A DNA stretch of 64,000 bases from positions 1,612,001-1,676,000 of the forward strand of contig NZ_CP036501.1 in the NCBI RefSeq assembly GCF_026230195.1. Direction: 5' to 3'. Every line of letters starts with the position of its first letter. Position 1 is the first letter of the stretch. This document shows, in pieces, positions 3,926 to 37,352 of the stretch. Both the position numbers and the translations under genes were made by a program. The notes under the pieces were generated by a model. It was not told the DNA's origin and did no database searches. It saw nothing but the letters and a program-made list of their open reading frames with translations. Source of the DNA: Candidatus Paraluminiphilus aquimaris (lineage in GTDB: Bacteria; Pseudomonadota; Gammaproteobacteria; Pseudomonadales; Halieaceae).

Positions 3926-3948
3926 AATTGGGTGCAAGTGGGGCGTTT

Positions 3949-17241: not shown

Positions 17242-17251
17242 AACTAACCCC

Positions 17252-18136
17252 TTAAGCCTGTCTTCGCTGAGCAATCATTTCGGCCGTTCGAAGTCCGGCC
17301 GCTGTCATGATGTCGAGATTACCCGCGTATTTGGGTAGGAAGTCGCCCAGTCCCTCGACCTCCACGGAGATCGTGATGCGATTGCCGTCGATGATCGGTG
17401 CGTTATTGAGCTTGTAGCCCGGAACATACCGTTGCACCTCGCCAACCATGGCGTCTATCGAGGCACGAATTTCGGCTTCTTTCGGATCATCTATCGTCAG
17501 ACAGTGAATGGTGTCCCTCATGACCAATGGTGGCTCGGCCGGGTTTATAATGATGATGGCCTTGCCTTCATCCGCACCACCAATTTGGGCGATTGCTGAG
17601 GAGGTGGTGCGCGTGAATTCATCGATATTATCGCGCGTGCCCATACCCACCGACTTAGAGGCAACTGTTGCGACAATTTCGGCATACTTCACGCGTTGTA
17701 CACGGCTAACGGCGAACACCATGGGAATGGTAGCCTGACCACCGCAGGTCACCATATTGACGTTCTGAGCAGGTCCCGTGTTGAGCAGCGCTTCGAGGTT
17801 GACCGGGGGTATGCAAAAAGGTCCGATAGCGGCAGGGGTAAGATCAATCATGGTGGCGCCGAGAGCGGTGACTTTGCGACTGTTCTCTGCATGCACGTAA
17901 GCGGAGGTCGCGTCGAAAACAAAGTCGACAGGCGCTTCATCGAAGCCTGCAACAAGTCCGTCGACACCTTCTGTGCTCGTGCGCAAACCGAACTCTCTCG
18001 CCCGCTGAATGCCGGCTGATTCCTCGATACCGACCATCCAGGTGGCCTCAATAAAATCGCTGCGCTGACATTTCATTAGTAAGTCAGTGCCGATATTACC
18101 GGGGCCAATGATGGCGGCTTTGGCTTTTATTGTCAT
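17252..18136 (-). CDS. hsaG: Acylating acetaldehyde/propionaldehyde dehydrogenase
   Basis: A 294-residue CoA-dependent aldehyde dehydrogenase of the BphJ/HsaG/MhpF family. Rossmann motif [12 protein letters not shown] (9-20), catalytic Cys131 in [11 protein letters not shown], and the terminal NLDIMTAAG region are intact; length is typical. It converts the aldehyde released by HsaF into acyl-CoA with NAD+. It sits between the hydratase and aldolase genes in the canonical order (E-G-F). GGGTGA precedes the ATG. Confidence 0.92.
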
Positions 18137-18149
18137 AAATCACCCATTG

Positions 18150-18956
18150 TTAAATGAATCGACAGCTAGCGCTGCAGGTCTCAAACTCGTTACCTGACAT
18201 CGTCAAGCTCATGATGTCTCCTGCTTGCACGGGTTCCAGTGGGACAACCGACCCCGATAGAATGACCTCGCCGGCCTCGAGGGCGATACCGTAGGCGCCC
18301 AAGGTATTGGCTAACCACGCGACGGCGGTGAGGGGGTTGCCCTGAACGGCGCTACCGAGCCCTGAACTCAATGGCTGACCGTTTTTACTCACGTCGATTT
18401 TTATACTGGGTAGGTCCACGTCGTTTGGGTCGATTTCACTGTCGCCTAATACGTAAACACCGCAACTGGCGTTGTCAGCAATGGTGTCTTGGATGGCGAT
18501 TTGCCAATTTTCGATTCGGGAGTCGACGATCTCAAAGCAGGGCATAATGCTCTTTGTGGCAGCCAGGACGTCAGCTTCGGTGTTGTCTGTTCCGGTCAAT
18601 GTGGATTTAAGGCGAAACGCTATTTCACCCTCCGCGCGAGGTGAGATCATATTGCCTGCTATCGGAATCTCGGCGTTATTTTCGTAGGCCATCGCATCCG
18701 TCAGAAAGCCAAAGTCGGGCTGAAAGACGCCGAGCATCTCTTGCACGGCGGCGGAGGTCACTCCGATCTTTTTCCCCACAACGATTTCACCATCGTTAAC
18801 TGTTCGGTGTGAGAGCATGATCCGTGATATCTGATAGGCATCCTCGATCGTAATTGAAGGATGCGTCTCACGCAGCGGCTTAATGGCGGTTTCTGTGCGC
18901 ATGGCATCATAGAGTGCACGCCCAAGGGTTTCGTGATCGGCGAACGTAAGACTCAT
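18150..18956 (-). CDS. hsaE: 2-hydroxypenta-2,4-dienoate-type hydratase
   Basis: A 268-residue member of the FAH/MhpD hydratase family. The metal-ligand region reads SPRAEGEIAFRL, and a further acidic ligand lies in CFEIVDSRIENW; QGNPLTAVAWLANTLGAYG is the family's C-terminal core. It adds water to the 2-hydroxydienoate that HsaD releases from ring A, forming a 4-hydroxy-2-oxoacid for HsaF. Gene order C-A-D-E-G-F matches bacterial steroid clusters. Confidence 0.9.
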   Translation of the reverse strand: MSLTFADHETLGRALYDAMRTETAIKPLRETHPSITIEDAYQISRIMLSHRTVNDGEIVVGKKIGVTSAAVQEMLGVFQPDFGFLTDAMAYENNAEIPIAGNMISPRAEGEIAFRLKSTLTGTDNTEADVLAATKSIMPCFEIVDSRIENWQIAIQDTIADNASCGVYVLGDSEIDPNDVDLPSIKIDVSKNGQPLSSGLGSAVQGNPLTAVAWLANTLGAYGIALEAGEVILSGSVVPLEPVQAGDIMSLTMSGNEFETCSASCRFI

Positions 18957-18998
18957 GCGTGGCTCTCGTTGTTTAAATAGACCGTATTTAGACCGGCA

Positions 18999-19832
18999 TT
19001 AGTGAGAAAGAAAAGACAGACAGCGTTCGTTGAAGAGATCTGGATACTCCGACATGACCCAATGACCACAGTAATTCACCAGTTCAGCTTGGACACTTCC
19101 CTTCATCCCCAGAATTTTCCACGTGCCTGACGCTGGACAGAAACGGTCCTCTGTACCCCAAAATACCAATGTATTGATATCGATTGAGGCCAGTTGATCG
19201 CTTAAATCAGGTATCTGCATTGTGGCAAGAACGTGAGCATTTTGTGTCTCCAGTGTCGCCCATCGTTCGTCGACCAGTTCATCGTCAACATTTGCCGGGT
19301 CATGAACGAGTTGAGTCAGCAGTTGAGCCAGCACCTCTTTGGTGAATTCAGGAGAGCCCATGGGATACTTCACCATGGCTTGAATGCCGGGCATGGAAAA
19401 GTAGTTCTCGCGTGATTCAATGCCACCGGGCGCCATGAGAATGAGTTTTTCCACACGCTCAGGATGGCGCAACGCCAAACCCAACGCCACCGCGCCGCCC
19501 AGTGAATTCCCTACGAGTACCGCTTTGGCGATACCCGTACGGTCAAGGAGTGAGACAAGTCCATCGACGAAAAAGTCGAGGGTATGGTCTACATCCTGTG
19601 GTTTTGAGGTCTTTCCATAGCCCCACTGGTCGAAAACGATGCAGCGGTAGCCCGCGCCTTGAAACGCCGAAACGTTGTGCTTGAAGTTACTCCAACCGCT
19701 AGCCCCCGGGCCGCTACCATGAATGAAGACCGCAACACCTTGTAAGTCCCCAGTGGGCGCATGGTCGGTGTAGTGGATGACCCGTTCTGGCTCAACTTCA
19801 TGGTATTGCGACGTCTCGGGGTTGGCAGCCAT
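18999..19832 (-). CDS. hsaD: Meta-cleavage product C-C hydrolase HsaD/TesD
   Basis: A 277-residue alpha/beta hydrolase of the MhpC/BphD group. Oxyanion-loop FIHGSGPGASGW, nucleophile Ser110 in VGNSLGGA, acid Asp229 in GTEDRFCP and base His257 in CGHWVMSE form the catalytic triad. It hydrolyses 4,5-9,10-diseco steroid (DSHA) into the C/D-ring propionate (HIP) and a hydroxyhexadienoate. Its ATG shares one base with the hsaA stop (TGATG), so the two are translationally coupled. Confidence 0.92.
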   Translation of the reverse strand: MAANPETSQYHEVEPERVIHYTDHAPTGDLQGVAVFIHGSGPGASGWSNFKHNVSAFQGAGYRCIVFDQWGYGKTSKPQDVDHTLDFFVDGLVSLLDRTGIAKAVLVGNSLGGAVALGLALRHPERVEKLILMAPGGIESRENYFSMPGIQAMVKYPMGSPEFTKEVLAQLLTQLVHDPANVDDELVDERWATLETQNAHVLATMQIPDLSDQLASIDINTLVFWGTEDRFCPASGTWKILGMKGSVQAELVNYCGHWVMSEYPDLFNERCLSFLSH

Positions 19833-23769: not shown

Positions 23770-24642
23770 ATGAATAAGTGCGTCAGCGCTGCTGAGGCGG
23801 TGTCTGCTATTGAGAGCGGAATGACCATCGGTATCGGTGGTTGGGGGCCTCGTCGAAAGCCAATGGGGCTTGTGCGCGAACTGTTGCGTTCTGATGTGCG
23901 CGACCTAACGGTTGTGGCTTACGGTGGGGCCGACGTGGGGCTCTTGTGTGCTGCGGGTAAAGTGAAGAAAGTGATCTTTGCCTTCGTGTCATTGGACTTT
24001 ATGCCACTGGAGCCCGCTTTCAGAAAAGCGCGTGAGTCAGGCGCCATAGAGGTACGCGAAGTCGATGAGGGCATGATGCTGCTCGGTTTGCGAGCTGCCG
24101 CCTGGGGGAGTCCTTACATTCCCACTCGGATTGGCATTGGGACCGATGTCGTGACGCGCAATCCAGACCTTAAGCTGGTTGACAGCCCCTACGACGATAA
24201 AGAATGGGTGGCGATGCCCGCGCTAAGTCTCGACGTGGCTCTGATCCATGCAACCAAGGCAGATGAACGAGGCGTTTGCGAAATCGCAAGTCCCGACCAT
24301 TACATGGATGATTGGTTTGCACGAGCATCCGACACGACCATTGTCTCGGTCGACGAGATGGTCTCCACGGATTATTTTCATGATCCCGACGTCGCTCGTC
24401 GCGTGTACTGGGAGCGCAATTGCACCAGCAAAGTTGTCCACATGCCGGGTGGTGCGCATCCGTCCTCATCTGACCCGCTGTACGGTTTTGATATCAAACA
24501 CTACAAGGAATACGGGGCGTTGATTGCCGAGGGCGGCTTCGATGCTTGGTCAGAGGCCTTCTTGGGCGATTCCGAGGCAGATTATCAAGCGGCTGTTGGC
24601 GGACTAGATACCATTCAATCACTGCCGTTACCGGTTTACTAA
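23770..24642 (+). CDS. ipdA: IpdA, alpha subunit of COCHEA-CoA ring hydrolase
   Basis: A 290-residue protein of the class I CoA-transferase alpha fold: GMTIGIGGWGPRRKPMGLV near residue 17, then LLCAAGKVKKVIFAF and a DEGM segment at residues 99-102 where the catalytic Glu of IpdA is expected. IpdAB is known to hydrolyse a C-C bond of COCHEA-CoA, opening the C ring, rather than transferring CoA. It begins the 10-gene rightward operon with AGGAAA before the ATG. IpdB follows after 12 bp, as in KstR2 regulons. Confidence 0.9.
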   Translation: MNKCVSAAEAVSAIESGMTIGIGGWGPRRKPMGLVRELLRSDVRDLTVVAYGGADVGLLCAAGKVKKVIFAFVSLDFMPLEPAFRKARESGAIEVREVDEGMMLLGLRAAAWGSPYIPTRIGIGTDVVTRNPDLKLVDSPYDDKEWVAMPALSLDVALIHATKADERGVCEIASPDHYMDDWFARASDTTIVSVDEMVSTDYFHDPDVARRVYWERNCTSKVVHMPGGAHPSSSDPLYGFDIKHYKEYGALIAEGGFDAWSEAFLGDSEADYQAAVGGLDTIQSLPLPVY

Positions 24643-24654
24643 CAGGAGCGCCTT

Positions 24655-25446
24655 ATGACGTTTTCTCTCGCAGAGCTCATGGTCTGTGCAGCGAGCCAAA
24701 GCTTCGATGATGAAGGAGAGGTGTTGGCAACCGGAATTGGCTTATTGCCACGGCTGGCTGCCAGCCTCGCAATGCGGACAACGAATCCCGACATGATGAT
24801 GACCGACAGTCAGTCATATATGCTGTCGCGACCCAACCCCGTCAGTGGTATGACTTCTCACGCGGGGCAAGCCAATGAAAATTGGATGGGGTTTGCTCGT
24901 ATTTTCGACAACGTATGGAGCGGTGCGCGACATGCACTGGTTGGCCCGAGTCAGGTCGACCGTTTTGGGCAGACTAACATCGCGGCACTGGGCGGAACGT
25001 ACGACGCGCCGAAGGTGCAATTATTGGGTGTGCGGGGTTTTCCCGGCAACTCCATCAGTCACGCTAACTCGTTCTTCGTCCCGAAGCACTCAACACGTGT
25101 ATTCGTTGCGGGGGAGTGTGATGTGGTTTGTTCAGTGGGCTATAACCCTGATCGCCTGCCACGAGGCTATAGTTTTGACGATGTCGATATTCGACGTGTC
25201 ATTACCGACTTGTGCGTGATGGACTTCAATGGGCCCAACAAACAAATGCGCGTGATTAGCCTACACCCAGGCGTACAGTTAGCTGAAGTGCAGGAAAATA
25301 CGGGCTTTGAGCTTGCCGTAGCTGATACCGTGGCGGAAACAGCGTCACCGACGCATGAGCAGCTGGCGATTATTTCAGAGCTGGATCCATTGAATTTCCG
25401 TGCAAAGCAACTCAAAGACAATCCGCCCGGCGTTCGAAGCGCCTGA
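24655..25446 (+). CDS. ipdB: IpdB, beta subunit of COCHEA-CoA ring hydrolase
   Basis: A 263-residue CoA-transferase beta-fold protein. MVCAASQSFDDEGEVLATGIGLLPRLA-type N-terminal pattern (residues 8-35), QVDRFGQTNIAALGG and RGFPGNSISHAN are visible. With IpdA it forms the heteromeric hydrolase that opens the C ring. AGGAG precedes the ATG. Its stop codon overlaps an ATG of the next gene (TGATG at 25444-25448), though that gene more likely starts at 25461. Confidence 0.9.
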   Translation: MTFSLAELMVCAASQSFDDEGEVLATGIGLLPRLAASLAMRTTNPDMMMTDSQSYMLSRPNPVSGMTSHAGQANENWMGFARIFDNVWSGARHALVGPSQVDRFGQTNIAALGGTYDAPKVQLLGVRGFPGNSISHANSFFVPKHSTRVFVAGECDVVCSVGYNPDRLPRGYSFDDVDIRRVITDLCVMDFNGPNKQMRVISLHPGVQLAEVQENTGFELAVADTVAETASPTHEQLAIISELDPLNFRAKQLKDNPPGVRSA

Positions 25447-25460
25447 TGGGAGAGAGCACT

Positions 25461-26336
25461 ATGACAGACGCAAACACTGACTACGTCGAAGAGAGCGATA
25501 TTGTGACCTATGAGGCGGCCGATGGGATCGCCTGGATCGCAATGAATCGACCAAAGTACAACAACGCGCAGAACGGACGGATGACTTACGAGCTTGATGC
25601 CGCGTTCATGCGCGCCGTGGCGGACGATGACGTCAAGGTGATTGTACTCAAAGGCGAGGGAAAGCACTTCTCGGCAGGGCACGATATTGGAACACCCGGA
25701 CGCGATGTGCACCTGAGCCAAGAGCGCGTAACAAGTTGGTATGACCACGCGAATAAGCCCGGCGGTGAATATTTATATGTTCGCGAGGCGGAGGCGTATC
25801 TGGGGATGTGTCGCCGGTGGCGAGATATTCCCAAGCCGACCATCGCTGCCGTCCAAGGAGCCTGTATAGCCGGTGGCCTCATGTTGGCGTGGGTTTGTGA
25901 CCTTATCGTTGCGACTGACGATGCGTACTTCTCAGATCCGGTGGTGAGGATGGGTATCCCCGGTGTGGAATATTTTGCTCACCCTTACGAATTAAACCCC
26001 CGGATCGCAAAAGAGTTTCTCTTCACTGGCAATAAAATGGGTGCCGAGCGGGCGTATCAGATGGGCATGGTGAATCAAATTAGTTCACGAGAGACCCTGA
26101 CAGATGATGTGACGGCTTTGGCGACCAAGATCGCCGGCATGCCGCGCTTAGGTCTTGCGCTCACCAAACAGGCCATTAATAACGTTGAGGAACTTCAAGG
26201 TAAGCGCCAGGGAATGGAGGCAGCCTTTGCTTGGCATCACTTCGCGCACGCTCACAACGATGTCGTTTCGGGTGACAAGTTGGGGGGGTTCGACGCGAAA
26301 GCCATGGCCAAAGCTAACAAGTCAGAGGACAGTTGA
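25461..26336 (+). CDS. Crotonase-superfamily protein lacking hydratase glutamates
   Basis: A 291-residue enoyl-CoA hydratase/isomerase-family protein from the ATG at 25461 (GGGAGAGAG 5 bp upstream). CoA-binding and oxyanion-hole segments are present (HFSAGHDIGTPG; CIAGGLMLAWVCDLIVATDDA). The two catalytic Glu of true hydratases are both replaced: the GGGxE position reads GGLML and the PE position reads DPVVRMGIPG. It is therefore probably not a simple hydratase; it might be an isomerase, C-C bond hydrolase or thioesterase acting on a ring-opened CoA ester. It lies between ipdB and fadE31 in the C/D-ring operon. Confidence 0.78.
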   Translation: MTDANTDYVEESDIVTYEAADGIAWIAMNRPKYNNAQNGRMTYELDAAFMRAVADDDVKVIVLKGEGKHFSAGHDIGTPGRDVHLSQERVTSWYDHANKPGGEYLYVREAEAYLGMCRRWRDIPKPTIAAVQGACIAGGLMLAWVCDLIVATDDAYFSDPVVRMGIPGVEYFAHPYELNPRIAKEFLFTGNKMGAERAYQMGMVNQISSRETLTDDVTALATKIAGMPRLGLALTKQAINNVEELQGKRQGMEAAFAWHHFAHAHNDVVSGDKLGGFDAKAMAKANKSEDS

Positions 26337-26340
26337 TCTC

Positions 26341-27507
26341 ATGGAGTTGATGTATACACGGGAGCAACAAGCGTTCCGCAGTGAGGTCCGTACGTGGCTC
26401 TCGGAAAATGTCCCCCCCGAGCGATTGCCCTCGTTCGATACGGCGGAGGGCTTTGCTGCGCACCGAGAGTGGGAGCGCACGCTTGCCGAGGGGAACTGGG
26501 GAATGGTGACCTGGCCAACTGAGTATGGGGGCCGCGGCTGTGACCTCATTGAGTGGCTGATCTTCGAGGAAGAGTATTACCGAGCAGGGGCACCTTTGCG
26601 GGTTAATCAAAACGGCATCTTTCTGCTCGGACCCACGCTAATGGAATACGGCACGGCAGAACAAAAAGCGCGTTTTATCCCCGCCATGGCGAGTGGTGAT
26701 GAAATATGGGCACAGGGATGGTCTGAGCCAAACGCCGGGTCCGATATGGCTGCGATTCGCTGTCGCGCTGATCGCGATGGTGATGAGTTTGTGATCAATG
26801 GGCAAAAGATTTGGTCGACGCGCGCAGTTTATGCTGACTGGGTGTTTGGTCTGTTTCGCACCGACCCTGAATCATCGCGACACCACGGACTGTCGAAAAT
26901 TTTGGTTCCCCTTAATTCTGAGGGTGTGACCGTTCGTCCAATTCAACAACTCAATGGACTGCCGGGATTTGCGGAAATCTTTTTCGATGACGTTCGTGTC
27001 CCCGCATTTAATTTGCTAGGTGGCGAGGGTGAAGGGTGGCGGATTGCGATGGCAACCGCGGGTTTTGAGCGAGGTTTGATGTTGCGCAGTCCGGCTAGAT
27101 TTCAGCAGGCATCAAAGCGACTGGTTCAGCTGTATCGAGAGCATGGCTCCGATGTTATCGACCCGTCGATCGAGTCTGCCGTTGTTCAGTGCTACATGGA
27201 TGCGGAAGCTTATGCGCTGTCGACCTATCAGACAGCGTCGAAGCTGTGCTCGGGTGGCTCCATCGGCGCGGAGGCAAGTTGCAACAAAATATTCTGGTCC
27301 GAGATGGACTTACTGATTCATGAAACAGCGATGAATCTGTTAGGTGCTCGGGCTGAGATAGAGCCTCAGACTGCAGCAGAGTTTGCGGAACTCGGCACAT
27401 GGCTCGACGGATTCATGTTTGCGCAGTCAGGCCCGATTTATGCGGGCACCAATGAAATTCAACGCAATATTATTGCCGAGCGTGTGCTTGGCATGCCTAG
27501 AAAGTAA
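26341..27507 (+). CDS. fadE31: Acyl-CoA dehydrogenase FadE31-type
   Basis: A 388-residue acyl-CoA dehydrogenase from the ATG at 26341. It resembles mycobacterial FadE31: LPSFDTAEGFAAHREWER, MVTWPTEYGGRG, FEEEYYRAGAPLR, WAQGWSEPNAGSDMAA, GLMLRSPARFQQASKRLVQLY and PIYAGTNEIQRNIIAERVLG. The usual catalytic Glu of IYEGT is Ala here, as in FadE31, so the base lies elsewhere or in a partner. In Mycobacterium FadE31 works with FadE32 or FadE33 in late C/D-ring beta-oxidation. The next gene is a smaller ACAD-like protein, fitting a heteromeric enzyme. Confidence 0.85.
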   Translation: MELMYTREQQAFRSEVRTWLSENVPPERLPSFDTAEGFAAHREWERTLAEGNWGMVTWPTEYGGRGCDLIEWLIFEEEYYRAGAPLRVNQNGIFLLGPTLMEYGTAEQKARFIPAMASGDEIWAQGWSEPNAGSDMAAIRCRADRDGDEFVINGQKIWSTRAVYADWVFGLFRTDPESSRHHGLSKILVPLNSEGVTVRPIQQLNGLPGFAEIFFDDVRVPAFNLLGGEGEGWRIAMATAGFERGLMLRSPARFQQASKRLVQLYREHGSDVIDPSIESAVVQCYMDAEAYALSTYQTASKLCSGGSIGAEASCNKIFWSEMDLLIHETAMNLLGARAEIEPQTAAEFAELGTWLDGFMFAQSGPIYAGTNEIQRNIIAERVLGMPRK

Positions 27508-27517
27508 GGAAGCGGAT

Positions 27518-28609
27518 ATGAACTTTACTTTCACTCAGGACCAACTCGATTTTCAAGAGGCTATCGCCACGATGCTGAAAAGCGAGGTGACTGCTGACTC
27601 GATTCGCGAACGGTGGTCCGCTGATGGTGGTGTAGATGATGCATTTTTGAAGCAGGCCCACGACCTAGGGTTGAACAGCATGCTTGTTCCCGAGGCACTC
27701 GGAGGCCTTGGATTGCAAGCTGCCGATTTCATCTTACTGGCTGAGGCCTGTGGTGAGGTGGCGCTGCCCGAGCCGTTGGTTGAGTCTGTCATGACCACGA
27801 CACCGTTGTTGGTGGATATTCTTGATCAAGGCTTAGGTAATTCAGACGTTCAGCGTGTCATTGACGGTGTGCTTGCGGGCGAGTCGAGGGTGGCAGTGGG
27901 GCACTCGATTAACCCTTACATCAACTACGCTGACTGTGCGGATTGGTTCGTACTGCCTGACGGCAATAGTCTCTATTTGATGCCGCGCGAGGCGGTGACA
28001 CTGAACGAGAAGAAAAGTGTTGACCCCTCACGACGACTCTTCGCCGTATCGTTTACACCCGATAATCAGTATCGGGTGGCTGACGGCGATGCCGGCGCGA
28101 ATTTGCAGCGGGCGACGCTCAATAGGGGCGCCCTCGCCACTGCTGCCCAGCTTGTTGGGTTGTCCAAAGGGATGATTGCGCAGAGCGTTCAGTACACCAG
28201 CGATCGAGAGCAGTTTGGTAAAGCCATTGGTGTGAACCAAGCCGTAAAGCACCTGCTTGCCGATGTGGCGGTTCAAATTGAGTACGCAAAGCCAGTGACA
28301 TACCGAGCGGCTTATACGGTTGGTGTGTCGCCAACGCGAGCCGACTTTGCTGTGTCTCACGCGAAGTCAGCTGCAGCGAGAACCGCACTGATGGCATCCC
28401 GGCATTGTATTCAAGTGCACGGTGCGATGGGGTACACCTGGGAGTGCGACGTCCAAATCTGGGCCAAGCGCGCTTGGGCACTGGCCAGAGAGTGGGGCGA
28501 TGAAGGTTTCCACAACAATCGGATACACGAGTGGTTATTGCGCAAAAATGCGCTGCTAGGACCTGAGTTCACGTTCGGGCGCGGATCACTCACAGACGTT
28601 GCGCAATAA
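27518..28609 (+). CDS. Acyl-CoA dehydrogenase-like subunit, FadE32/FadE33-type
   Basis: A 363-residue acyl-CoA dehydrogenase-family protein from the ATG at 27518 (AAGGA upstream). The N-terminal domain is present, but the central FAD/substrate region is divergent and lacks the SEPxAGSD motif seen in its partner. The C-terminal half keeps SKGMIAQSVQYTSDREQFGK and the HGAMGYTWECDVQIWAKRA segment. This is the pattern of the smaller partners in heteromeric steroid ACADs (FadE32/33, ChsE1). It starts 10 bp after the fadE31-like gene, so the pair probably forms one alpha2-beta2 enzyme. Confidence 0.82.
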   Translation: MNFTFTQDQLDFQEAIATMLKSEVTADSIRERWSADGGVDDAFLKQAHDLGLNSMLVPEALGGLGLQAADFILLAEACGEVALPEPLVESVMTTTPLLVDILDQGLGNSDVQRVIDGVLAGESRVAVGHSINPYINYADCADWFVLPDGNSLYLMPREAVTLNEKKSVDPSRRLFAVSFTPDNQYRVADGDAGANLQRATLNRGALATAAQLVGLSKGMIAQSVQYTSDREQFGKAIGVNQAVKHLLADVAVQIEYAKPVTYRAAYTVGVSPTRADFAVSHAKSAAARTALMASRHCIQVHGAMGYTWECDVQIWAKRAWALAREWGDEGFHNNRIHEWLLRKNALLGPEFTFGRGSLTDVAQ

Positions 28610-28642
28610 GGCGCAGCAACACATTTACAGCGGAGAAAAATA

Positions 28643-29800
28643 ATGGGACAGCGTGCAGAAGCCTACATTGTTGATGCCATAAGGACCCCCACGGGTAAGC
28701 GTCGAGGCTCACTCGCCACAGTTCATGGTGCAGACCTTGGCGGCTTCATATTAAAGGCGCTCGTAGACCGGCACACAATTCCTGATGACGAGTACGACGA
28801 TGTCGTATTTGGTTGTCTCGATACCATTGGTCCGTTAGCCGGTGATATCGCACGCACCTGTTGGTTGGCAGCGGGGTTGAGTGACGTGGTACCCGGTACA
28901 ACGGTTGATCGTCAATGTGGCTCCTCTCAGCAGGCCGTGCATTTCGCAGCCCAGGCCGTTATGTCTGGGACGATGGATGTGGTGGTAGCGGGCGGTGTGC
29001 AGACTATGTCGTCGATACCGATTTCCGCGGCCATGTACGCGGGTCAACCCTATGGCTTTGATAGCCCCTTTACCGGCAGTGAAGGGTGGGTAGCGCGTTA
29101 CGGTACACAGGAGGTCTCACAGTTCAAATCAGCGCAAATGATTGCTGATAAATGGGACATTTCCCGCGAGGAAATGGAGGCGTTCTCGCTTGAATCGCAC
29201 CGGCGTGCGCGTGCCGCGACTGACTCGGGTTACTTCGAGCGAGAAATCATCCCTTTTGACGGGCTGGGTTTTGATGAGACGATTCGAAACACATCGATGG
29301 AAGCCATGGCGGGGCTCGAGCCCTTAGCGCCAGGCGGCACCATCACGGCCGCTGTCTCGAGTCAGACCTGCGACGGTTCCTCCGCGGTACTGATCGTATC
29401 GGAGGAGGCTCTTAAACGTTATAACTTGACGCCAAGGGCGCGGATCGCGCACATGTCAGTGCGCGCAGATGATCCGATCTGGATGCTGACAGCACCCATT
29501 CCGGCGACGACTCATGCCCTGAAGAAATCAGGCTTCTCCCTTGACGATATTGACCTTGTTGAGATCAATGAGGCCTTTGCTTCGGTGCCGATGGCGTGGC
29601 TGAAGGAACATGATTACGCGCATGAGAAAACGAACGTTAACGGCGGTGCGATTGCCTTGGGGCATCCGTTAGGTTCGACAGGCACCAAGTTGATGACGAC
29701 GTTGCTGCACGAAATGGAGCGTCGGCAGGTTCGTTATGGCCTCCAGACGATGTGTGAAGGCGGTGGTCAAGCGAATGTGACTATTCTTGAGCGCTTATAA
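28643..29800 (+). CDS. fadA6: FadA6-type thiolase of C/D-ring catabolism
   Basis: A 385-residue thiolase highly like mycobacterial FadA6: nucleophile Cys92 in VDRQCGSSQQA, EINEAFASVPMAWLKE, GGAIALGHPLGSTG with the active-site His, and the second Cys in TMCEGGGQAN. It performs thiolytic cleavage of a ring-opened beta-ketoacyl-CoA intermediate made after IpdAB action. GGAGA precedes the ATG. Located in the operon between ACAD and SDR genes, as expected for a beta-oxidation cycle. Confidence 0.9.
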   Translation: MGQRAEAYIVDAIRTPTGKRRGSLATVHGADLGGFILKALVDRHTIPDDEYDDVVFGCLDTIGPLAGDIARTCWLAAGLSDVVPGTTVDRQCGSSQQAVHFAAQAVMSGTMDVVVAGGVQTMSSIPISAAMYAGQPYGFDSPFTGSEGWVARYGTQEVSQFKSAQMIADKWDISREEMEAFSLESHRRARAATDSGYFEREIIPFDGLGFDETIRNTSMEAMAGLEPLAPGGTITAAVSSQTCDGSSAVLIVSEEALKRYNLTPRARIAHMSVRADDPIWMLTAPIPATTHALKKSGFSLDDIDLVEINEAFASVPMAWLKEHDYAHEKTNVNGGAIALGHPLGSTGTKLMTTLLHEMERRQVRYGLQTMCEGGGQANVTILERL

Positions 29801-29825
29801 AGCGCAGGTGTAGTTAGGAGGCTTT

Positions 29826-30710
29826 ATGGGAATCTGTGATCAACGCGTTGTCATTGTTACCGGTGCAGGGGGTGGTTTGGGTGCAGCGCATGCCCGTGTC
29901 CTTGCCAGTGAAGGGGCTTCGGTACTTGTTAACGATATTAATACTGACGCGGCACAAGCCGTTGTTGACGACATTATTTCGGCAGGCGGCCGGGCTGTGG
30001 TCAATGACTCGGACATTACCCATTACGAAAGTAGTGGGATGGCCGTGGCGCAAGCCATTGAAACCTTCGGTGACCTGACGGGGGTCGTCAACAACGCCGG
30101 TAACAACCGTGACCGAATGTTTGCGTCGCTTTCAGAGGCAGATTGGGATCAGGTCATTGCCGTCCACTTGAAAGGACATTTTTGCATTGCCTCTCATGCA
30201 GTTCAGTACTGGCGTCATCAATCGAAGCTGGGCAACGCGGTTTCTGGGCGCATCGTTAATACAACGTCGGGTGCGGGCCTACAGGGGTCTATAGGGCAGT
30301 CGAATTATGCGGCTGCTAAGGCGGGCATTGCCGCGCTGACTTTGAATCAAGCTGCTGAGTTGGGCCGGTACGGAATTACAGCGAACGCGATATGCCCTGT
30401 TGCTCGCACCGGCATGACCACTGCTGTGCCGGCTATGGCCGAGCGCATGGCCATCCCTGAGGATGGGTCTTTCGATCACTTTGCACCAGAAAATGTGTCT
30501 TCCGTCGTTACCTGGCTGTGTTCTGAGGCGTCGAGTCGCGTTACGGGTCAGGTAATTGAGGCAGAGGGGGGTCGGATTGCTATCGCCGATGGCTGGCGAA
30601 GCACCCGGGGTGTCGATAAAGGGGCACGTTGGGCACCGGCTGATGTCGGTGACGCGCTCGACGAAGCTATGTCTACTGCCGTACCGCCCCAACAAGTCTG
30701 GGGCAGTTAG
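29826..30710 (+). CDS. SDR, probable 3-hydroxyacyl-CoA/hydroxysteroid dehydrogenase (HSD17B4-like)
   Basis: A 294-residue SDR with an N-terminal VTGAGGGLGAAHAR motif and NNAGNNRDRMF, features shared with the dehydrogenase part of peroxisomal MFE-2/HSD17B4 and with mycobacterial Rv3548c-like proteins of the cholesterol regulon. Catalytic Ser (NTTSGAG), Tyr and Lys (NYAAAKAG) are intact. A C-terminal tail of ~40 residues follows the last strand. It probably oxidises a (3R)-hydroxyacyl-CoA in ring or side-chain beta-oxidation. RBS TTAGGAGG lies 4 bp before the ATG. Confidence 0.82.
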   Translation: MGICDQRVVIVTGAGGGLGAAHARVLASEGASVLVNDINTDAAQAVVDDIISAGGRAVVNDSDITHYESSGMAVAQAIETFGDLTGVVNNAGNNRDRMFASLSEADWDQVIAVHLKGHFCIASHAVQYWRHQSKLGNAVSGRIVNTTSGAGLQGSIGQSNYAAAKAGIAALTLNQAAELGRYGITANAICPVARTGMTTAVPAMAERMAIPEDGSFDHFAPENVSSVVTWLCSEASSRVTGQVIEAEGGRIAIADGWRSTRGVDKGARWAPADVGDALDEAMSTAVPPQQVWGS

Positions 30711-30718
30711 GAGCTGTT

Positions 30719-31864
30719 TTGAAGTTCGCATTTACCGATGAGCAGCGCATGCTCAAGGACACAAGCCAAAGCTTTTTAGCGGCCGAGTCAAACTCGTCCG
30801 CCGTTCGCACTGCCTCTACGTCTGAGAAGACTTACGACCCACAACTCTGGCGCAAGATCTGCGAAGACATGTATTGGCAGGGCATTCTAGCGCCCGAGGC
30901 CTGCGAGGGACTGGGTCTTGGCTGGGTGGAAATGGCAATTGTACTCGAGGCCGCAGGCGAAGCATTGCTTACCGCGCCGCTGTTCTCCAGTACCCAGAGT
31001 ACAGCTGCGCTTTTGTTGTGTCCGCAAAGCGCCATGAGAGATGCACTGCTGTCCTCTATCGTGACGGGCGATGTTATCAGCTTAGCAATGAGTGATCAGC
31101 GCGAGGGCTGGTCCTCGTGCGGCGTCGTGGCAACCGATAAAAGCAACACCACATTGCTGTCGGGTTCAGCACGTTTTGTCCCCTTTGGCGCGGCAGCCTC
31201 AAAGTTATTAGTGGTCGCTGTCGATGCCTTGGGTGCACATTCATTGTGGGTTGTTGACCCGTCGCAAGAAGGTGTCGTTGTGACACATACGCCAACTATG
31301 GATCAGACCCGTGCGATGGCGAGCGTCAGCTTGGAAAATGTGGCAGTCAGTGTGGACCAGTTGCTTGCCGATGATGCACAGGCGTTGATCGAACCGATAT
31401 TGGCGTTGAGCCGAATTTTAGTGGTCGCAGACCAAGTAGGGGTAGCCCAGGCGAGTCTCGACATGAGCGTTGACTACACGAAAGAGCGGTCGCAATTCGA
31501 TCGCACCATCGCTTCGTTTCAAGCTATTAAGCACAAAGCGGCTGACATGATGCTCAAAGTCGAGTCTGCACGCTCATTGCTTTACTACGCGGCCTGCGTC
31601 GCCGATGCGTGGTTTGCAGGTGAAGCAAGTATTGAGGCGCTCCAAGAGGCGGCCTTTATGGCCAGCTCCTGTGCGAGTGAAGCGGCGTTCTTTAATGCCG
31701 GTACAGGTATTCAAATGCACGGTGGCGTGGGCATTACGGAGGAGTACGACATACAACTTTACTTCAAGCGAGCCCGTGCCACTGAGAGCTTCCTCGGGAG
31801 ACCCGCAGAGATGCGCGAGGCAATCGCTCGACAGCTGTTAGACGGAGGTGCGGCATGCAACTGA
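30719..31864 (+). CDS. Acyl-CoA dehydrogenase subunit coupled to FadE30
   Basis: A 381-residue acyl-CoA dehydrogenase-family protein starting at TTG 30719 (GGAG 6 bp upstream). The C-terminal domain is well kept: ADQVGVAQASLDMSVDY, ERSQFDRTIASFQAIKHKAA and QMHGGVGITEEYDIQLYFKR. The middle beta domain is divergent. Its last 10 bp overlap the start of fadE30, so translation is coupled, and the two likely form a heteromeric dehydrogenase. No specific mycobacterial orthologue is claimed. Confidence 0.83.
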   Translation: MKFAFTDEQRMLKDTSQSFLAAESNSSAVRTASTSEKTYDPQLWRKICEDMYWQGILAPEACEGLGLGWVEMAIVLEAAGEALLTAPLFSSTQSTAALLLCPQSAMRDALLSSIVTGDVISLAMSDQREGWSSCGVVATDKSNTTLLSGSARFVPFGAAASKLLVVAVDALGAHSLWVVDPSQEGVVVTHTPTMDQTRAMASVSLENVAVSVDQLLADDAQALIEPILALSRILVVADQVGVAQASLDMSVDYTKERSQFDRTIASFQAIKHKAADMMLKVESARSLLYYAACVADAWFAGEASIEALQEAAFMASSCASEAAFFNAGTGIQMHGGVGITEEYDIQLYFKRARATESFLGRPAEMREAIARQLLDGGAACN

Positions 31865-33051
31865 GTTTTACCGCAGCCGATGAGCACTTTCGCGAGGAAG
31901 TCGCGGATTGGTTGAACGATAACCTTCAGGGTGAATTTGCACAGGTTCGCTACCGCGGTGGTCCAGGTGACGAGCATCACTTTGTAAACGAGCGTAAGGC
32001 TTGGGAGCGTCGTCTTGCTGAGGGTCGCTGGACCTGTATTGGCTGGCCTGAGGTGTGGGGTGGGAGAGCTGCATCGATCGAGCAGCAGGTCATTTTTCAC
32101 GAGGAATACGCCAGAGCAGGTGGGCCTGGTCGAATGGGACACATTGGGGACACCCTCACCGGGCCGACGTTGCTCGCTTTCGGTAGCGAAGCTCAGCAAG
32201 CGAAATATTTGCCAGCGATTCGAAACGGTGAGGCATTTTGGAGTCAGGGCTACTCCGAGCCCGGTGCCGGGTCAGACCTCGCTGCGATCAGAACTCGCGC
32301 CGTCTTCAACGAAACCTCAGGTCAGTGGCAAATCACTGGCCAAAAAGTATGGACGTCTTTGGCCCATGAGTCGGATTTTGTCTTTGTTCTTGCGCGGATT
32401 GAGCGCGATAGCCAGCGTCATCATGGGCTTGGGTTCTTTTTGGTGGCGCTCGACCAGCCCGGCGTGACCATAAGACCCATTACACAGCTGACGGGAACCG
32501 CAGAATTTAACGAGGTGTATTTCGATGAGGCTGAGTGCGGTCCGGACGATATTGTGGGCGCACCGGGCGAGGGTTGGAAAGTCGCTATGGGGCTTTTGGG
32601 CTTCGAGCGCGGTGTTTCGACGCTTGGCCAGCAAATGCTGTTTCAGACTGAGCTCGATGAAATCATTCGCATTGCCAAAGAGAACGGCGCCGCAACTGAC
32701 CCAGATATCCGTCAGCGAATAGCTGAGGCTCACATTGGGTTGCGGACCATGCGGTATAACAGCATGCGCATGCTGTCAGGGGGTGAGGACGGTACTCTGA
32801 GTCGAGAAGCGATGATCTATAAGCTGTACTGGTCAAGCTGGCATCGTAACCTTGGAAAGCTTGCGATGGATGTGCTCGGACCAGAGTCAGAGTTAATCGA
32901 CGTCGCACCCTACGAACTGAGCAAATTACAGTCGCTATTTCTATTTACTCGGGCCGACACGATTTACGGTGGGACCAACCAGATTCAACGTAACCTCATT
33001 GCAGAGCGCGCGTTAGGGATGCCTAAAGAGCCTCGAGGATCAGCTAAATGA
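31855..33051 (+). CDS. fadE30: Acyl-CoA dehydrogenase FadE30
   Basis: A 398-residue acyl-CoA dehydrogenase strongly resembling mycobacterial FadE30 (Rv3560c): ERKAWERRLAEGRWTCIGWP, FHEEYARAGGPGRM, QGYSEPGAGSDLAAIRTRA, KVWTSLAHESDFVFVLAR, QLTGTAEFNEVYFDEA, FERGVSTLGQQML and FTRADTIYGGTNQIQRNLIA. FadE30 carries out the first dehydrogenation of the HIP-CoA propionyl side chain. The position of the MCAD-type catalytic Glu is Gly (IYGGT), as in FadE30. Overlaps the preceding ACAD gene by 10 bp and precedes ipdF by 15 bp. Confidence 0.9.
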   Translation: MQLSFTAADEHFREEVADWLNDNLQGEFAQVRYRGGPGDEHHFVNERKAWERRLAEGRWTCIGWPEVWGGRAASIEQQVIFHEEYARAGGPGRMGHIGDTLTGPTLLAFGSEAQQAKYLPAIRNGEAFWSQGYSEPGAGSDLAAIRTRAVFNETSGQWQITGQKVWTSLAHESDFVFVLARIERDSQRHHGLGFFLVALDQPGVTIRPITQLTGTAEFNEVYFDEAECGPDDIVGAPGEGWKVAMGLLGFERGVSTLGQQMLFQTELDEIIRIAKENGAATDPDIRQRIAEAHIGLRTMRYNSMRMLSGGEDGTLSREAMIYKLYWSSWHRNLGKLAMDVLGPESELIDVAPYELSKLQSLFLFTRADTIYGGTNQIQRNLIAERALGMPKEPRGSAK

Positions 33052-33066
33052 TGCAGGGAACTGACT

Positions 33067-33855
33067 ATGAGTAGAACGATTCCAGCCTACGTCGATGGGC
33101 ACAATCTCCTTGCAGGAAAGTCTGTCTTGATCACGGCAGCTGCGGGTGCAGGTATTGGGTTTTCTGCGGCGACCCGTGCTGTGGAAGAGGGTGCGCGTGC
33201 GGTTGTCATTAGCGATGTTCACGAGGGGCGTCTCATGCAGGCGAAGGACACGTTGGCTGCGATATCGGATGAATGCTCGGTAGGTGCCCATCTGTGTGAC
33301 GTTACCGACGAGACCCAAGTTCAAGCGTTGATAGCCTATGCGGAGTCCCTGATGAGCGGCGTCGACGTGCTTATCAACAACGCGGGCCTTGGGGGTTCTT
33401 GCCGCTTGGTCGATATGAGCGATGAAGAATGGTCGCGGGTGTTGGACATCACACTAACCGGCACAATGCGGATGACCCGCGCGATGTTGCGTGAGATGCA
33501 ACCCCGAGGCCAGGGCGTTATTGTCAATAATGCCTCGGTGCTCGGTTGGCGGGCACAGGAAGAGCAGTGCCATTACGCGGCAGCAAAAGCTGGTGTAATG
33601 GCCCTAACACGCTGTTCAGCCATGGAAGCCGCCCAGTCAGGCGTTCGCATTAATGCGGTGTCGCCCAGCATTGCGATGCATGACTTTCTCAGAAAGACGT
33701 CTTCGCCCGAGCTGTTAGAGCGCCTCGCGTCTCGAGAGGCTTTTGGGCGTGCGGCGGAAGTTTGGGAAGTAGCGAATGTCATGATGTTTTTGGCCTCGGA
33801 TTACTCGAGCTATATGACGGGCGAGGTGGTTTCTGTCTCGAGCCAGCATGCTTAG
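33067..33855 (+). CDS. ipdF: IpdF, SDR of C/D-ring catabolism
   Basis: A 262-residue SDR matching mycobacterial IpdF (Rv3559c) closely: TAAAGAGIGFSAATRA, NNAGLGGSCRLVDMSDEEW, VNNASVLGWRAQEEQCHYAA, AKAGVMALTRCSAMEAA, INAVSPSIAMHDFLRKTSS and SDYSSYMTGEVVSVSSQHA. The glycine motif is the atypical TAAAGAGIG seen in IpdF. Known role: dehydrogenase for the 5-hydroxyl of the HIP-CoA series. Gene order fadE30-ipdF is shared with the mycobacterial cluster. AGGGA precedes the ATG. Confidence 0.9.
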   Translation: MSRTIPAYVDGHNLLAGKSVLITAAAGAGIGFSAATRAVEEGARAVVISDVHEGRLMQAKDTLAAISDECSVGAHLCDVTDETQVQALIAYAESLMSGVDVLINNAGLGGSCRLVDMSDEEWSRVLDITLTGTMRMTRAMLREMQPRGQGVIVNNASVLGWRAQEEQCHYAAAKAGVMALTRCSAMEAAQSGVRINAVSPSIAMHDFLRKTSSPELLERLASREAFGRAAEVWEVANVMMFLASDYSSYMTGEVVSVSSQHA

Positions 33856-33952: not shown

Positions 33953-35653
33953 ATGAGCGAGATGAATTGGGACCGAGAGGTTGACGTACTCGTTGTTGGA
34001 ACGGGAAACGGTGGTTTGACGGCGGCTGTCTGCAATTGGGAGATGGGCACTAAAGACATTCTCATCATCGAGAAGCAAGACAAGGTGGGCGGTACAAGCG
34101 CGACCTCTGGCGGGGGTATCTGGATTCCAAACAACCACTATGCGAAAGAGGTCGGTGCTGAGGACAATCCTGCAGATGCCAAGGCCTACCTGACGAACAC
34201 GCTTTTTGGTGAAGACGTCCCAGAGGAGATGATCGATGTCTACCTCCAAAAAGCACCTGAGATGCTCAAATATCTCCACGATCGAACCGATGTTCGCTAT
34301 GAGTCACTGGCGGAATACCCTGACTACTACACGAATGTGGAAGGGGCGAGAGAAGGCCATCGGTCGCTTGAACCGTCCCCCATCATGGCGTCAGAGCTTG
34401 GCGAAAATTGGAAAAATATGACATGGACGCACTTCATGATGCGCATGTTTAATCGTATCCACTTTACGCAAGTGGAGGCTCACTTGTTGATGGTGCAGCT
34501 CCCAGGTTGGAAGACCTTGTTAGCGAAACTTATGTGGGATTACGTGCGCGACATACCATGGCGCTTCAAAACGCCTATTTCACGTCGCTTGGCATGCGGT
34601 TCAGCCGGTGTCGCAAGGCTTTACCTGTCGGTTTTAAAGCGCGAGATCCCGCTTGAGTTCAACACGCAAATGGTTGAGCTGATTGCAGACGGGGATACGG
34701 TGTTGGGCGCGGTTATTGAATGCAACGGTCAGCGTCAGCGTGTTCGCGCAGCTAAAGGCGTGATCTTGGCATCGGGCGGGTTTGAGAAAAACCAGACCCT
34801 CAGAGAACAGTATTTACCGGCTCCGACCAACACCACTTGGTCAGCAGGGAACCCCGGTAACGAGGGCGACGCGCTCTTAGCCGGTCTCGAATTGGGTGCG
34901 AAAACGCGTTTGATGAACGATGCTTGGTGGACGACCACGCTGTGCGTGCCTGATGAGCCAGCGCCACGACTCGCGATTATGGAGAAATCGTTTCCAGGGT
35001 CCTGCGTCGTCAACCGTGATGGCAAACGATTTGCCAATGAGTCTCAGAACTACATGGCTTTCCAGAAGGATCTTTTCAAAACCCATACGGATGAGCATCC
35101 GAATGCACCTGCATGGCATGTCTTTGACGCCACATTCCGTGAGAATTTTATGGTGGGGCCGCTGATGACCAAGGCCATGAAGCCGGACTCTCAAATCCCC
35201 AAAAAGTGGTTCGATGAGGGCTTTGTCGCTAAGGCAGACACCATTCGCGAGCTAGCCGACATGCTCGGCATCGACGCCGACGGTCTTGAAGGAACCATCG
35301 GCAAGATGAATCACTACGCTGAGACCGGTAAGGACGAGGACTTTGGTCGAGGGGATTCGGCATACGATCGTTACTATGCGGATCCGGCGATTAAACCCAA
35401 TCCCTGTCTCGCGCCCATCGTCAAAGCACCGTTTTACGCCATGCGCATCGAAGCGGGCGACTTTGGTACCTTGGGTGGTTTGGATACCGATACTGATGCT
35501 CGGGTCAAGAAAGCCGATGGTGGTGTCTTTGAAGGGTTGTTTGCGGTGGGTAATTGCTCTGCAGCCATTTTGCCAACCTATCCCGGTCCCGGAGCAACCT
35601 TGGGTCCCGCAATGACCATGGCGTATCAAGCCGCCTGTCACATGAACGCCTAG
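33953..35653 (+). CDS. kstD: 3-ketosteroid dehydrogenase (KstD-type flavoprotein)
   Basis: A 566-residue FAD_binding_2 protein. FAD motif VVGTGNGGLTAA (15-26), GGTSATSGGGIWIPNN (~45-60), internal ILASGGFEKN, and the family-typical end FAVGNCSAAILP followed by TYPGPGATLGPAM. The Tyr-Pro-Gly pattern is that of 3-ketosteroid-delta1-dehydrogenases, which desaturate ring A to trigger B-ring opening; a delta4-(5-alpha) dehydrogenase is the alternative, though the length favours delta1. It has its own 97-bp upstream gap and is followed by a BaiE-like gene after 9 bp. Confidence 0.85.
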   Translation: MSEMNWDREVDVLVVGTGNGGLTAAVCNWEMGTKDILIIEKQDKVGGTSATSGGGIWIPNNHYAKEVGAEDNPADAKAYLTNTLFGEDVPEEMIDVYLQKAPEMLKYLHDRTDVRYESLAEYPDYYTNVEGAREGHRSLEPSPIMASELGENWKNMTWTHFMMRMFNRIHFTQVEAHLLMVQLPGWKTLLAKLMWDYVRDIPWRFKTPISRRLACGSAGVARLYLSVLKREIPLEFNTQMVELIADGDTVLGAVIECNGQRQRVRAAKGVILASGGFEKNQTLREQYLPAPTNTTWSAGNPGNEGDALLAGLELGAKTRLMNDAWWTTTLCVPDEPAPRLAIMEKSFPGSCVVNRDGKRFANESQNYMAFQKDLFKTHTDEHPNAPAWHVFDATFRENFMVGPLMTKAMKPDSQIPKKWFDEGFVAKADTIRELADMLGIDADGLEGTIGKMNHYAETGKDEDFGRGDSAYDRYYADPAIKPNPCLAPIVKAPFYAMRIEAGDFGTLGGLDTDTDARVKKADGGVFEGLFAVGNCSAAILPTYPGPGATLGPAMTMAYQAACHMNA

Positions 35654-35662
35654 GGGGCTGTT

Positions 35663-36121
35663 ATGTTGGATCTGGAGTCAATTGAACTCATTAAACAATT
35701 GAAGGCACGCTACTTTCGCTTTCTTGATACGCGCAACATCGAGGGCCTACAGACGGTCTTTACGAGCGATGCGACCGCGTCTTTTGTGGGCGGTGATTAT
35801 GACTTTCAGCTGGATGGCTGGGAGCAGCTGGAAGCGTTTTATAAAAAGTCATTCACGGGCCAGAACTTCGGCATGCACAACGGGCATCACCCGGAAATCT
35901 GTGTCGATGGCGATACCGCGACAGGCATCTGGTACCTCCAGGATATTTTTGTCTCCCTCGAGCATGACATCACCATCACAGGAAGTGCACTCTATGAGGA
36001 CGAATATCGCCGCGAGGGCGGCGAGTGGCGCATTGCGCGAACCGGTTATCAGCGGCTGTGGGAAGAACATCATAAACGCGGCGACAACGTTCGTTTGCGG
36101 GTGAAGCCGATTGCCGACTAA
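35663..36121 (+). CDS. SnoaL-fold hydroxysteroid dehydratase, BaiE/Hsh2-like
   Basis: A 152-residue SnoaL-fold protein that lines up with clostridial bile-acid 7-alpha-dehydratase BaiE: LKARYFRFLD, MHNGHHPEICVD, TATGIWYLQD and TGYQRLWEEHHKRGD each have a close BaiE counterpart. The catalytic residues of BaiE (Tyr30, Asp35, His83, Asp106, Arg146) correspond to Tyr17, Asp22, His72, Asp94 and Arg131. BaiE and the proteobacterial Hsh2 eliminate the 7-alpha-hydroxyl from delta4-3-keto bile acids. Close linkage to kstD (9 bp) supports a steroid substrate. Position of the hydroxyl removed is inference. GGGGG precedes the ATG. Confidence 0.8.
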   Translation: MLDLESIELIKQLKARYFRFLDTRNIEGLQTVFTSDATASFVGGDYDFQLDGWEQLEAFYKKSFTGQNFGMHNGHHPEICVDGDTATGIWYLQDIFVSLEHDITITGSALYEDEYRREGGEWRIARTGYQRLWEEHHKRGDNVRLRVKPIAD

Positions 36122-36167: not shown

Positions 36168-37352
36168 ATGAAAGATGTAGTGGTAGTAGATAGCGTTCGG
36201 ACTGGTTTAGCGAAGTCGTTTCGTGGGAGTTTCAACTGGACGCGCTCCGACGACATGGCGGCCTTTTTGATCGATGCATTGATCGAACGGAACCCCCAGT
36301 TTGACCCCGGTGAAGTCGATGACATTATCCTGGGCGCCGCGAATCAGTCGGGTGAGCAAAGCGGCAATCTGGCCCGCATGGCATCCTTTTTATCGAAGCT
36401 CCCCATTGAGGCGACGGGCACCACAGTCAATCGTTTCTGTGCCTCGGGCCTCCAGACCATCGCAATGGCGGCAAATCAGATTGGTTCGGGCTATACCGAT
36501 GTGATGATGGCCGGTGGCGCGGAATCTATTTCGATGCGCGTACGCCAGGAAGAGGGTAAGTCCCAGCAGAACTGCACGCTGCTCGAGAACAAGCCCGAGG
36601 TGTTCATGCAGATGGGTAATACCGCTGAGGTGGTTGCTCGCCGTTACGATGTGTCCCGCGAGTCTCAGGATACCTATGCACTTCAGAGCCAGCAGCGCTA
36701 CGCGCAGGCTTGCGAGAGCGGCGCGATACAAGAAGAGATCGTTCCCATGCCTGCGACCATGAAGCTGGTTAACAAGGACACGGGCGAGGAGGCGTTCAAA
36801 GATGTAATGGTGGATCGCGACGAATGTAATCGCGTCGACACCACGCTCGACGGTTTGTCCATGCTAAAGCCGGCTTTCGAGGAGGGCGGTAGTGTCACTG
36901 CTGGCAACTCGTCGCAGCTCAGTGATGGCGCCTCGATGACGCTTCTCATGAGTGCTGAACGCGCGGAACAATTGGGTGTGAAACCACTGGGGTATTTTCG
37001 CGGGTTTGTGACAGCAGGCTGTGAGCCAGACGAGATGGGTATTGGCCCCGTGTTTGCGATTCCAAAACTCCTTAAACGGGCGGGTTTGAGCCAAGATGAC
37101 ATTGATTTGTGGGAGCTCAACGAGGCGTTTGCATCGCAATGCGTTTACTGCCGTGACTTCTTAGGCATCGACAATGCTAAGTACAACGTCAATGGTGGCA
37201 GCATCGCCATCGGTCACCCCTTCGGCATGACGGGCTCGCGCATGGTAGGTCGCGTTCTGCGTGAGCTGAAACGCACAGGCGGTCGCTACGGTGTAGTAAC
37301 CATGTGTGTTGCAGGAGGGCAAGGTGCCGCGGGGTTAGTCGAGGCCTGCTAG
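36168..37352 (+). CDS. Thiolase (acetyl-CoA acyltransferase family)
   Basis: A 394-residue thiolase starting at ATG 36168. Active-site Cys91 in VNRFCASGLQT, His in GGSIAIGHPFGMTGSR, second Cys in TMCVAGGQGAAG, and LNEAFASQ are intact. It differs from the FadA6 copy at 28643 and looks like a general FadA-type thiolase, so it may serve a steroid side-chain or a late fragment. It is the last gene of the rightward steroid series and is followed by a strong terminator. Confidence 0.85.
   Translation: MKDVVVVDSVRTGLAKSFRGSFNWTRSDDMAAFLIDALIERNPQFDPGEVDDIILGAANQSGEQSGNLARMASFLSKLPIEATGTTVNRFCASGLQTIAMAANQIGSGYTDVMMAGGAESISMRVRQEEGKSQQNCTLLENKPEVFMQMGNTAEVVARRYDVSRESQDTYALQSQQRYAQACESGAIQEEIVPMPATMKLVNKDTGEEAFKDVMVDRDECNRVDTTLDGLSMLKPAFEEGGSVTAGNSSQLSDGASMTLLMSAERAEQLGVKPLGYFRGFVTAGCEPDEMGIGPVFAIPKLLKRAGLSQDDIDLWELNEAFASQCVYCRDFLGIDNAKYNVNGGSIAIGHPFGMTGSRMVGRVLRELKRTGGRYGVVTMCVAGGQGAAGLVEAC

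Follow-up and report, generated by a model that had tools for sequence, protein, structure and literature searches.

Which reaction is carried out by the small SnoaL gene that stands directly behind kstD, a 3-ketosteroid delta1-dehydrogenase gene, in the marine bacterium Candidatus Paraluminiphilus aquimaris (Halieaceae)? The gene lies at 35663-36121 in a stretch of 64,000 nucleotides (contig NZ_CP036501.1, positions 1,612,001 to 1,676,000; hereafter the window) of a genome searched as a single 2.72-Mb contig. A sequence-only reading had described a 152-residue SnoaL protein resembling the clostridial dehydratase BaiE, 9 bp from kstD, and had suggested that it removes the 7-hydroxyl from bile acids by the delta4,6 route. 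The open reading frame (ORF) on the + strand is borne out by the ORF list and by a match to Pfam SnoaL_4 (94.5 bits, cut-off 24), and the 9 bp gap by the end of kstD at 35653. With a probability of roughly 0.65, the gene product is an Hsh2/BaiE-type dehydratase that has an NTF2 fold (SnoaL_4) and needs no cofactor, most likely acting on 7alpha-hydroxy 3-keto-delta4 (or delta1,4) steroids to yield delta4,6 (or delta1,4,6) products. Family, fold, five aligned residues, adjacency to kstD, co-occurrence with hsaC and the distinction from an Hsh1-type gene were all computed here. Collectively they suggest a well-supported further member of a known enzyme kind, not a new kind, in a host group that is apparently new for an Hsh2-type enzyme.

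Fold and active site

The PDB matches of the 35663 protein are led by BaiE, the bile acid 7alpha-dehydratase of gut clostridia (PDB 4leh, 4l8o, 4l8p, 4n3v), whose first three entries are matched at E values of 1.1e-25 to 1.1e-24, far beyond chance; the next family follows at 2.9e-5. BaiE is likewise the nearest solved structure (SnoaL_4/NTF2 fold), with other NTF2 folds within 1.5 Z. Along with the fold, the two proteins have in common the motifs YFR-x-LD, MH-x-GH-x-PE, WYL-x-D and GY-x-R-x-x-EEH. The five residues named as catalytic by the sequence-only reading hold their places in the PDB alignment, where Tyr17, Asp22, His72, Asp94 and Arg131 match BaiE Tyr30, Asp35, His83, Asp106 and Arg146. 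These BaiE numbers are those of the earlier reading and equal the printed PDB chain number minus 19; the 19 extra residues are presumably a tag.

An NTF2-like protein could also serve sterol A-ring oxidation as a delta5-3-ketosteroid isomerase (KSI), an enzyme that has both the fold and an N-terminal Tyr in common with the 35663 protein. In the printed alignment, however, Phe41 faces the Asp of the isomerase VED stretch (Asp38/40), which we take to be the general base, and the match to BaiE at E 1e-25 compares with 0.003 for KSI. An isomerase is therefore improbable, and this identity was rejected on the residue found at the isomerase Asp column. ScdH, the HIP-stage (methylhexahydroindanedione propionate) 7alpha-dehydratase of Comamonas, was ruled out as a relative because it is a crotonase and not a SnoaL protein (PMC13101464).

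Relationship to Hsh2 and Hsh1

In a published table, Hsh2 is given as Nov2c400 and a KshA as Nov2c407 (PMC8399759). On a plasmid of Novosphingobium P6W, the SnoaL gene TQ38_RS27435 is followed by genes for a TonB receptor, a regulator, a luciferase-like (LLM) oxidoreductase, a TIM barrel protein, a hypothetical protein, a short-chain dehydrogenase/reductase (SDR) and a Rieske protein. Since the Rieske gene is the seventh on, the same spacing as from Nov2c400 to Nov2c407, TQ38_RS27435 was taken as a stand-in for Hsh2. A second stand-in comes from S. herbicidovorans MH, named as a delta4,6 strain (PMC8399759), in which the SnoaL gene is followed by the same first four genes as in P6W and then by two SDRs and another NTF2 gene. 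By synteny, we infer that both proteins are Hsh2. In a 50-row tree, built after removal of a weak Hsh1-like row (L146, 28% identity), the 35663 protein falls in a 15-row clade with both stand-ins (support 100/99), which were set by synteny and are not the assayed Hsh2. BaiE, Dietzia and other rows lie outside this clade, and the Hsh1-type rows form one of their own (100/100). An 83-row tree that includes P6W and not S. herbicidovorans, with 39 near-duplicate names listed for removal beforehand, agrees in a 20-row clade (100/98). Likeness to Hsh2 of Sphingobium sp. Chol11 and Azoarcus sp. Aa7, whose sequences lay outside the comparison, thus runs through the syntenic stand-ins and consists of the same clade, the five residues and a steroid-degrading host. 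The settings differ in that the 35663 gene is directly behind kstD whereas genes for an SDR and a TonB receptor, with a Rieske gene besides in P6W, accompany the sphingomonad stand-ins.

The same comparison bears on a rival reading, in which the protein would work at the HIP stage as an Hsh1/SteC-like dehydratase of the 12beta-hydroxyl. Hsh1/SteC, which removes the 12beta-hydroxyl together with Sor1/SteD, has the SnoaL/NTF2 fold, the steroid cluster and dehydration chemistry in common with the 35663 protein, and a structural resemblance of SteC to BaiE has been described (PMC13101464). Yet the window contains a separate pair at 476-2209, in which 476-1117 is very probably the Hsh1-type gene because the gene orders of genome G363 (SDR, SDR, a SnoaL gene 71% identical to 476-1117, and an old yellow enzyme (OYE) gene) and of N. 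aromaticivorans pNL2 (an NTF2 gene 64% identical to 476-1117, an alkene reductase, SDR, SDR) match the sub-cluster in which Hsh1, Sor1, SteA and SteB are grouped (PMC8399759). The 35663 and 476-1117 proteins share 21% identity and belong to different clades, and each of the six Hsh1-type rows, among them 476-1117, carries Asn at position 94 and lacks Arg at 131. The 35663 gene is flanked by kstD and a thiolase gene, with no adjoining alkene reductase (Sor1/SteD) or SteA/SteB SDR pair. An Hsh1/SteC identity, scarcely credible on these grounds, was rejected because the window has a better Hsh1 candidate with its own reductase. The Asp94/Arg131 pair that separates the 35663 protein from the six Hsh1-type rows may help annotation, though it is not absolute among BaiE-like rows.

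Conservation and co-occurrence

Among close relatives, kstD adjoins the SnoaL gene on the same strand in 24 of 26 loci (L004-L029, with L005 and L029 cut by contig ends); in three more distant Halioglobus-type loci (L030-L032), no kstD was found beside the SnoaL gene. The SnoaL-kstD pair also occurs on a Porticoccaceae contig (72% and 67%) and in G383, a genome of another family, where an SDR, the SnoaL gene, kstD and a second kstD-like gene follow one another on one strand. The SDR in G383 is 52% identical to the one at 3928-4725 of the window, with which the SDRs next to the SnoaL genes of P6W and S. herbicidovorans share 53% and 54% identity.

Across 140 genomes of the family, a SnoaL match (E 1e-15 or better, including longer relatives besides the window type) is present in 93 and an hsaC match (1e-65 or better) in 90. 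Both are found in 81 genomes, SnoaL only in 12, hsaC only in nine and neither in 38 (Fisher p 2e-15, a value that ignores kinship and incomplete genomes), and without the three weakest SnoaL genomes the table becomes 80/10/10/40. Within the genus (n=57; SnoaL E 1e-40 or better; membership of G057-G112 taken from listing order), the corresponding counts are 19, 4, 5 and 29. Of 13 genomes of the class that bear hsaC, four (G289, G434, G484, G496) have no SnoaL match at E 0.01; some of the hsaC matches in these four may be other extradiol dioxygenases.

Could the SnoaL protein have no steroid substrate and sit in the cluster by chance? SnoaL_4 proteins with the five residues occur in several phyla, and most have no steroid reference gene in their vicinity, as such an explanation would have it. 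Against it stand the conserved adjacency to kstD, the co-occurrence with hsaC and the conserved active site, and chance placement appears very improbable. The residues themselves need careful reading. Of the 121 relatives collected, 112 carry all five and nine lack part of the set. The pattern scan for relatives kept the best 80 of 359, and since its two patterns contain Tyr17, Asp22 and Asp94, the scan itself accounts for part of the conservation of these three in L038-L117; His72 and Arg131 lie outside the patterns. Because so many relatives have all five, the residues alone do not fix the substrate, and they were rejected as proof of 7alpha specificity.

Proposed reaction and substrate

For the enzyme encoded at 35663, we infer the reaction, the hydroxyl position and the order of steps as follows. 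The substrate would be a 7alpha-hydroxy steroid that already has a 3-keto-delta4 (or delta1,4) A ring. With its C3 carbonyl clamped by Tyr17, the 3-keto-delta4 system would acidify the C6 proton, which the His72-Asp94 pair would take off as a proton relay while the 7alpha-hydroxyl leaves as water in a vinylogous elimination. These roles of Tyr17 and His72-Asp94 are assumed to carry over from BaiE work. The gene's place next to kstD would suit a reaction on a 3-keto steroid that precedes delta1-desaturation or accompanies it. The resulting delta4,6 (or delta1,4,6) 3-ketosteroid would proceed through 9alpha-hydroxylation into the 9,10-seco pathway. Here the parallel with BaiE, which belongs to a separate clade, would end: since 9,10-seco genes are present in the Halieaceae host, the product is predicted to be degraded and not reduced to a secondary bile acid. 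For BaiE, cis or trans elimination is still described as uncertain, and the enzyme takes its substrate as CoA ester or as free acid but does not act on the 7beta epimer (PMC10382948).

The identity of the hydroxysteroid is where the strongest alternative arises. The same dehydratase chemistry could act on 7-hydroxysterols, on C27 bile alcohols or sulfates, or on a 7beta- or other hydroxyl, and not on 7alpha-hydroxy C24 bile acids. Immediately upstream of the window, a gene for a CYP125-like P450 (best PDB match CYP125MRCA, E 3.5e-97) favours C27 substrates, and kstD is nearest to 7p18, presumably from a sterol degrader. Adjoining the P450 is a sulfatase-like ORF recognized by eye, and the pair (L119:7822-10886) is suggestive of sterol or bile-alcohol sulfate use. 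A choloylglycine-hydrolase (CBAH) family search of the genome found no bile-salt hydrolase. Given this result and the CYP125-like sterol hydroxylase, 7-hydroxysterols or C27 bile alcohols remain candidate substrates. A Halieaceae isolate grew on cholesterol (PMC5790920), and BaiI, a SnoaL_4 homolog of BaiE, has been hypothesised to be a 7beta-dehydratase (PMC10382948). By contrast, the Hsh1-Sor1-like pair of the window favours bile-acid-like 12-hydroxysteroids as the incoming substrate, two CasG-like CoA ligases are encoded (361 and 381 bits, both below the 750 cut-off; one inside the window, one outside), and the purified 7beta enzyme Hsh3 has another fold (PMC12175502). We regard a different substrate as possible though unlikely, and prefer a dehydratase of 7alpha-hydroxy 3-ketosteroids. 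A BaiE/Hsh2-type hydroxysteroid dehydratase in a steroid cluster by kstD, as first proposed from the letters, is supported; the bile acid substrate and the delta4,6 route are not established. The CBAH search was empty, and the CYP125-like gene and the 7p18-like kstD would also suit sterols.

Besides the empty bile-salt hydrolase search, several points weigh against a 7alpha-dehydratase. Identity is just 41% and 39% to the two stand-ins and 36% to BaiE. The stand-ins rest on the gene spacing in P6W, with Nov2c400 itself outside the comparison, and in S. herbicidovorans that seventh position holds something other than a Rieske gene, so the support from this strain is partial. The co-occurrence counts treat related genomes as independent. 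Two Halieaceae relatives within the 15-row clade, from Pseudohalioglobus (L112) and Seongchinamella (L087), have none of the window's steroid reference genes within 10 kb either side. Lastly, three Hsh2 homologs of Caenibius tardaugens were not induced by cholate (PMC12882949), and homology alone is thus no proof of role.

Published accounts of Hsh2 come from Sphingobium Chol11 and Azoarcus Aa7, and the delta4,6 route is also on record from Dietzia and additional sphingomonads (PMC8399759, PMC12175502, PMC12882949); other gammaproteobacteria are listed as bile-acid degraders (PMC8399759). Judged by titles and abstract beginnings, no paper in the bile and dehydratase literature on Hsh2 concerned Halieaceae. 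No description of a marine Hsh2 or of marine bile-alcohol breakdown, including a combined C27 route, was found in the literature listings searched, which is a weak absence. The remark that such chemistry is rarely described in marine gammaproteobacteria is accordingly fair for Hsh2 in print. Steroid degradation itself, however, has been predicted for OM60 genomes (PMC4810484) and for Halieaceae (PMC5790920), and SnoaL matches occur in two-thirds of the family genomes. If the proposed function is true, the 7-dehydroxylating chemistry of gut clostridia and soil sphingomonads would also be common in the steroid turnover of a marine family, and there would be a defined gene for following 7-hydroxysteroid breakdown at sea. 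More speculatively, loss of the C7-hydroxyl in marine Halieaceae may be part of an operon for A-ring oxidation, in a 9,10-seco pathway able to handle sterols. Together with CYP125-like side-chain attack and Hsh1-Sor1 action at C12, it might allow a single ocean bacterium with a small genome to mineralise C27 steroids that bear hydroxyls, fish bile alcohols and 7-hydroxysterols among them; we regard this scenario as unlikely.

The surrounding steroid cluster

The window features are collected in Table 1. Of the 9,10-seco enzymes, HsaA-, HsaC-, FadD3- and KstD-like proteins are encoded in the window, the HsaA, HsaC and KstD models scoring below their NCBIfam cut-offs, and three KshA_C Rieske genes above cut-off all lie outside it. 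The genes at 26341..33051 probably serve C/D-ring (HIP) degradation, and their NF005861 SDR is one that we take to be IpdF. The IpdA-like and IpdB-like genes gave no NCBIfam match at E 1e-30. Terminator-like sites follow the downstream thiolase at 37355 and 37448, a weak signal given six such sites in the region and 3.7 in shuffles.

Table 1. Features of the window that bear on steroid breakdown.
Feature	Position	Strand	Remarks
Second SnoaL paralog, Hsh1/SteC type by synteny (candidate 12-hydroxyl dehydratase)	476..1117	+	Without Asp94 and Arg131 equivalents
OYE-family alkene reductase, Sor1/SteD type	1130..2209	+	12 bp behind 476-1117; 50% identical to pNL2 alkene reductase beside the pNL2 Hsh1-type gene
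SDR	3928..4725	+	52-56% identical to SDRs near Hsh2-like SnoaL genes in Novosphingobium P6W, S. herbicidovorans, G383 and a Hyphomicrobiales metagenome-assembled genome (MAG); here not adjacent to the 35663 gene
Probable hsaF, hsaG, hsaE, hsaD	16219..19832	-	By eye from sequence and order
hsaA-like	19832-20962	-	Below curated cut-off
hsaC-like	21075-21980	-	Below curated cut-off
fadD3	22050-23681	-	Above curated cut-off
IpdA-like, IpdB-like, EchA20-like	23770..26336	+	55%, 51%, 61% identity to pNL2 CoA-transferase and enoyl-CoA hydratase genes
Four acyl-CoA dehydrogenases, thiolase, SDR	26341..33051	+	Two dehydrogenases match IpdE2 below cut-off; SDR NF005861, above cut-off
SDR oxidoreductase (NF005880)	33067..33855	+	Upstream of kstD
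kstD, 3-ketosteroid delta1-dehydrogenase	33953..35653	+	9 bp upstream of SnoaL gene; best PDB chain 7p18 (3-oxosteroid 1-dehydrogenase), E 2.7e-142; NCBIfam KstD models below cut-offs
SnoaL_4, BaiE/Hsh2-like putative hydroxysteroid dehydratase	35663..36121	+	152 aa; Tyr17, Asp22, His72, Asp94, Arg131
Thiolase, downstream of SnoaL gene	36168..37352	+	ORF from 36111; Met at 36168 chosen as start

Other SnoaL genes

Three SnoaL proteins were found by search in the genome, encoded at 35663, at 476-1117 and at L119:1670-2179. With the first two, candidates for hydroxyl removal at C7 and at C12 lie in one and the same window. The third paralog also has BaiE as its best PDB match (E 1.1e-11) and carries Trp at position 17, Phe at 94 and Leu at 131. 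The OYE gene of L119, compared with the pNL2 OYE-type genes in a search for a 5beta-delta4-ketosteroid dehydrogenase (5beta-delta4-KSTD), shows 29-35% identity.

Beyond this genome, two Dehalococcoidia MAGs (L043, 3084-6006; L044, 35-2960) have tandem BaiE-like SnoaL genes, 48% and 50% identical to BaiE, directly behind a gene for a kstD-like flavoprotein (31%), which makes steroid chemistry in this group possible. In both tandems, one SnoaL copy is without the Asp94 equivalent and the other without that of Arg131. In Pseudomonas sp. NKUCC02_KPG (L104, 7895-15304), three SnoaL genes lie near a KshA-family Rieske gene, and two of them are sisters of the window clade. One sister has neither the Asp94 nor the Arg131 equivalent, and this duplicate may have changed function.
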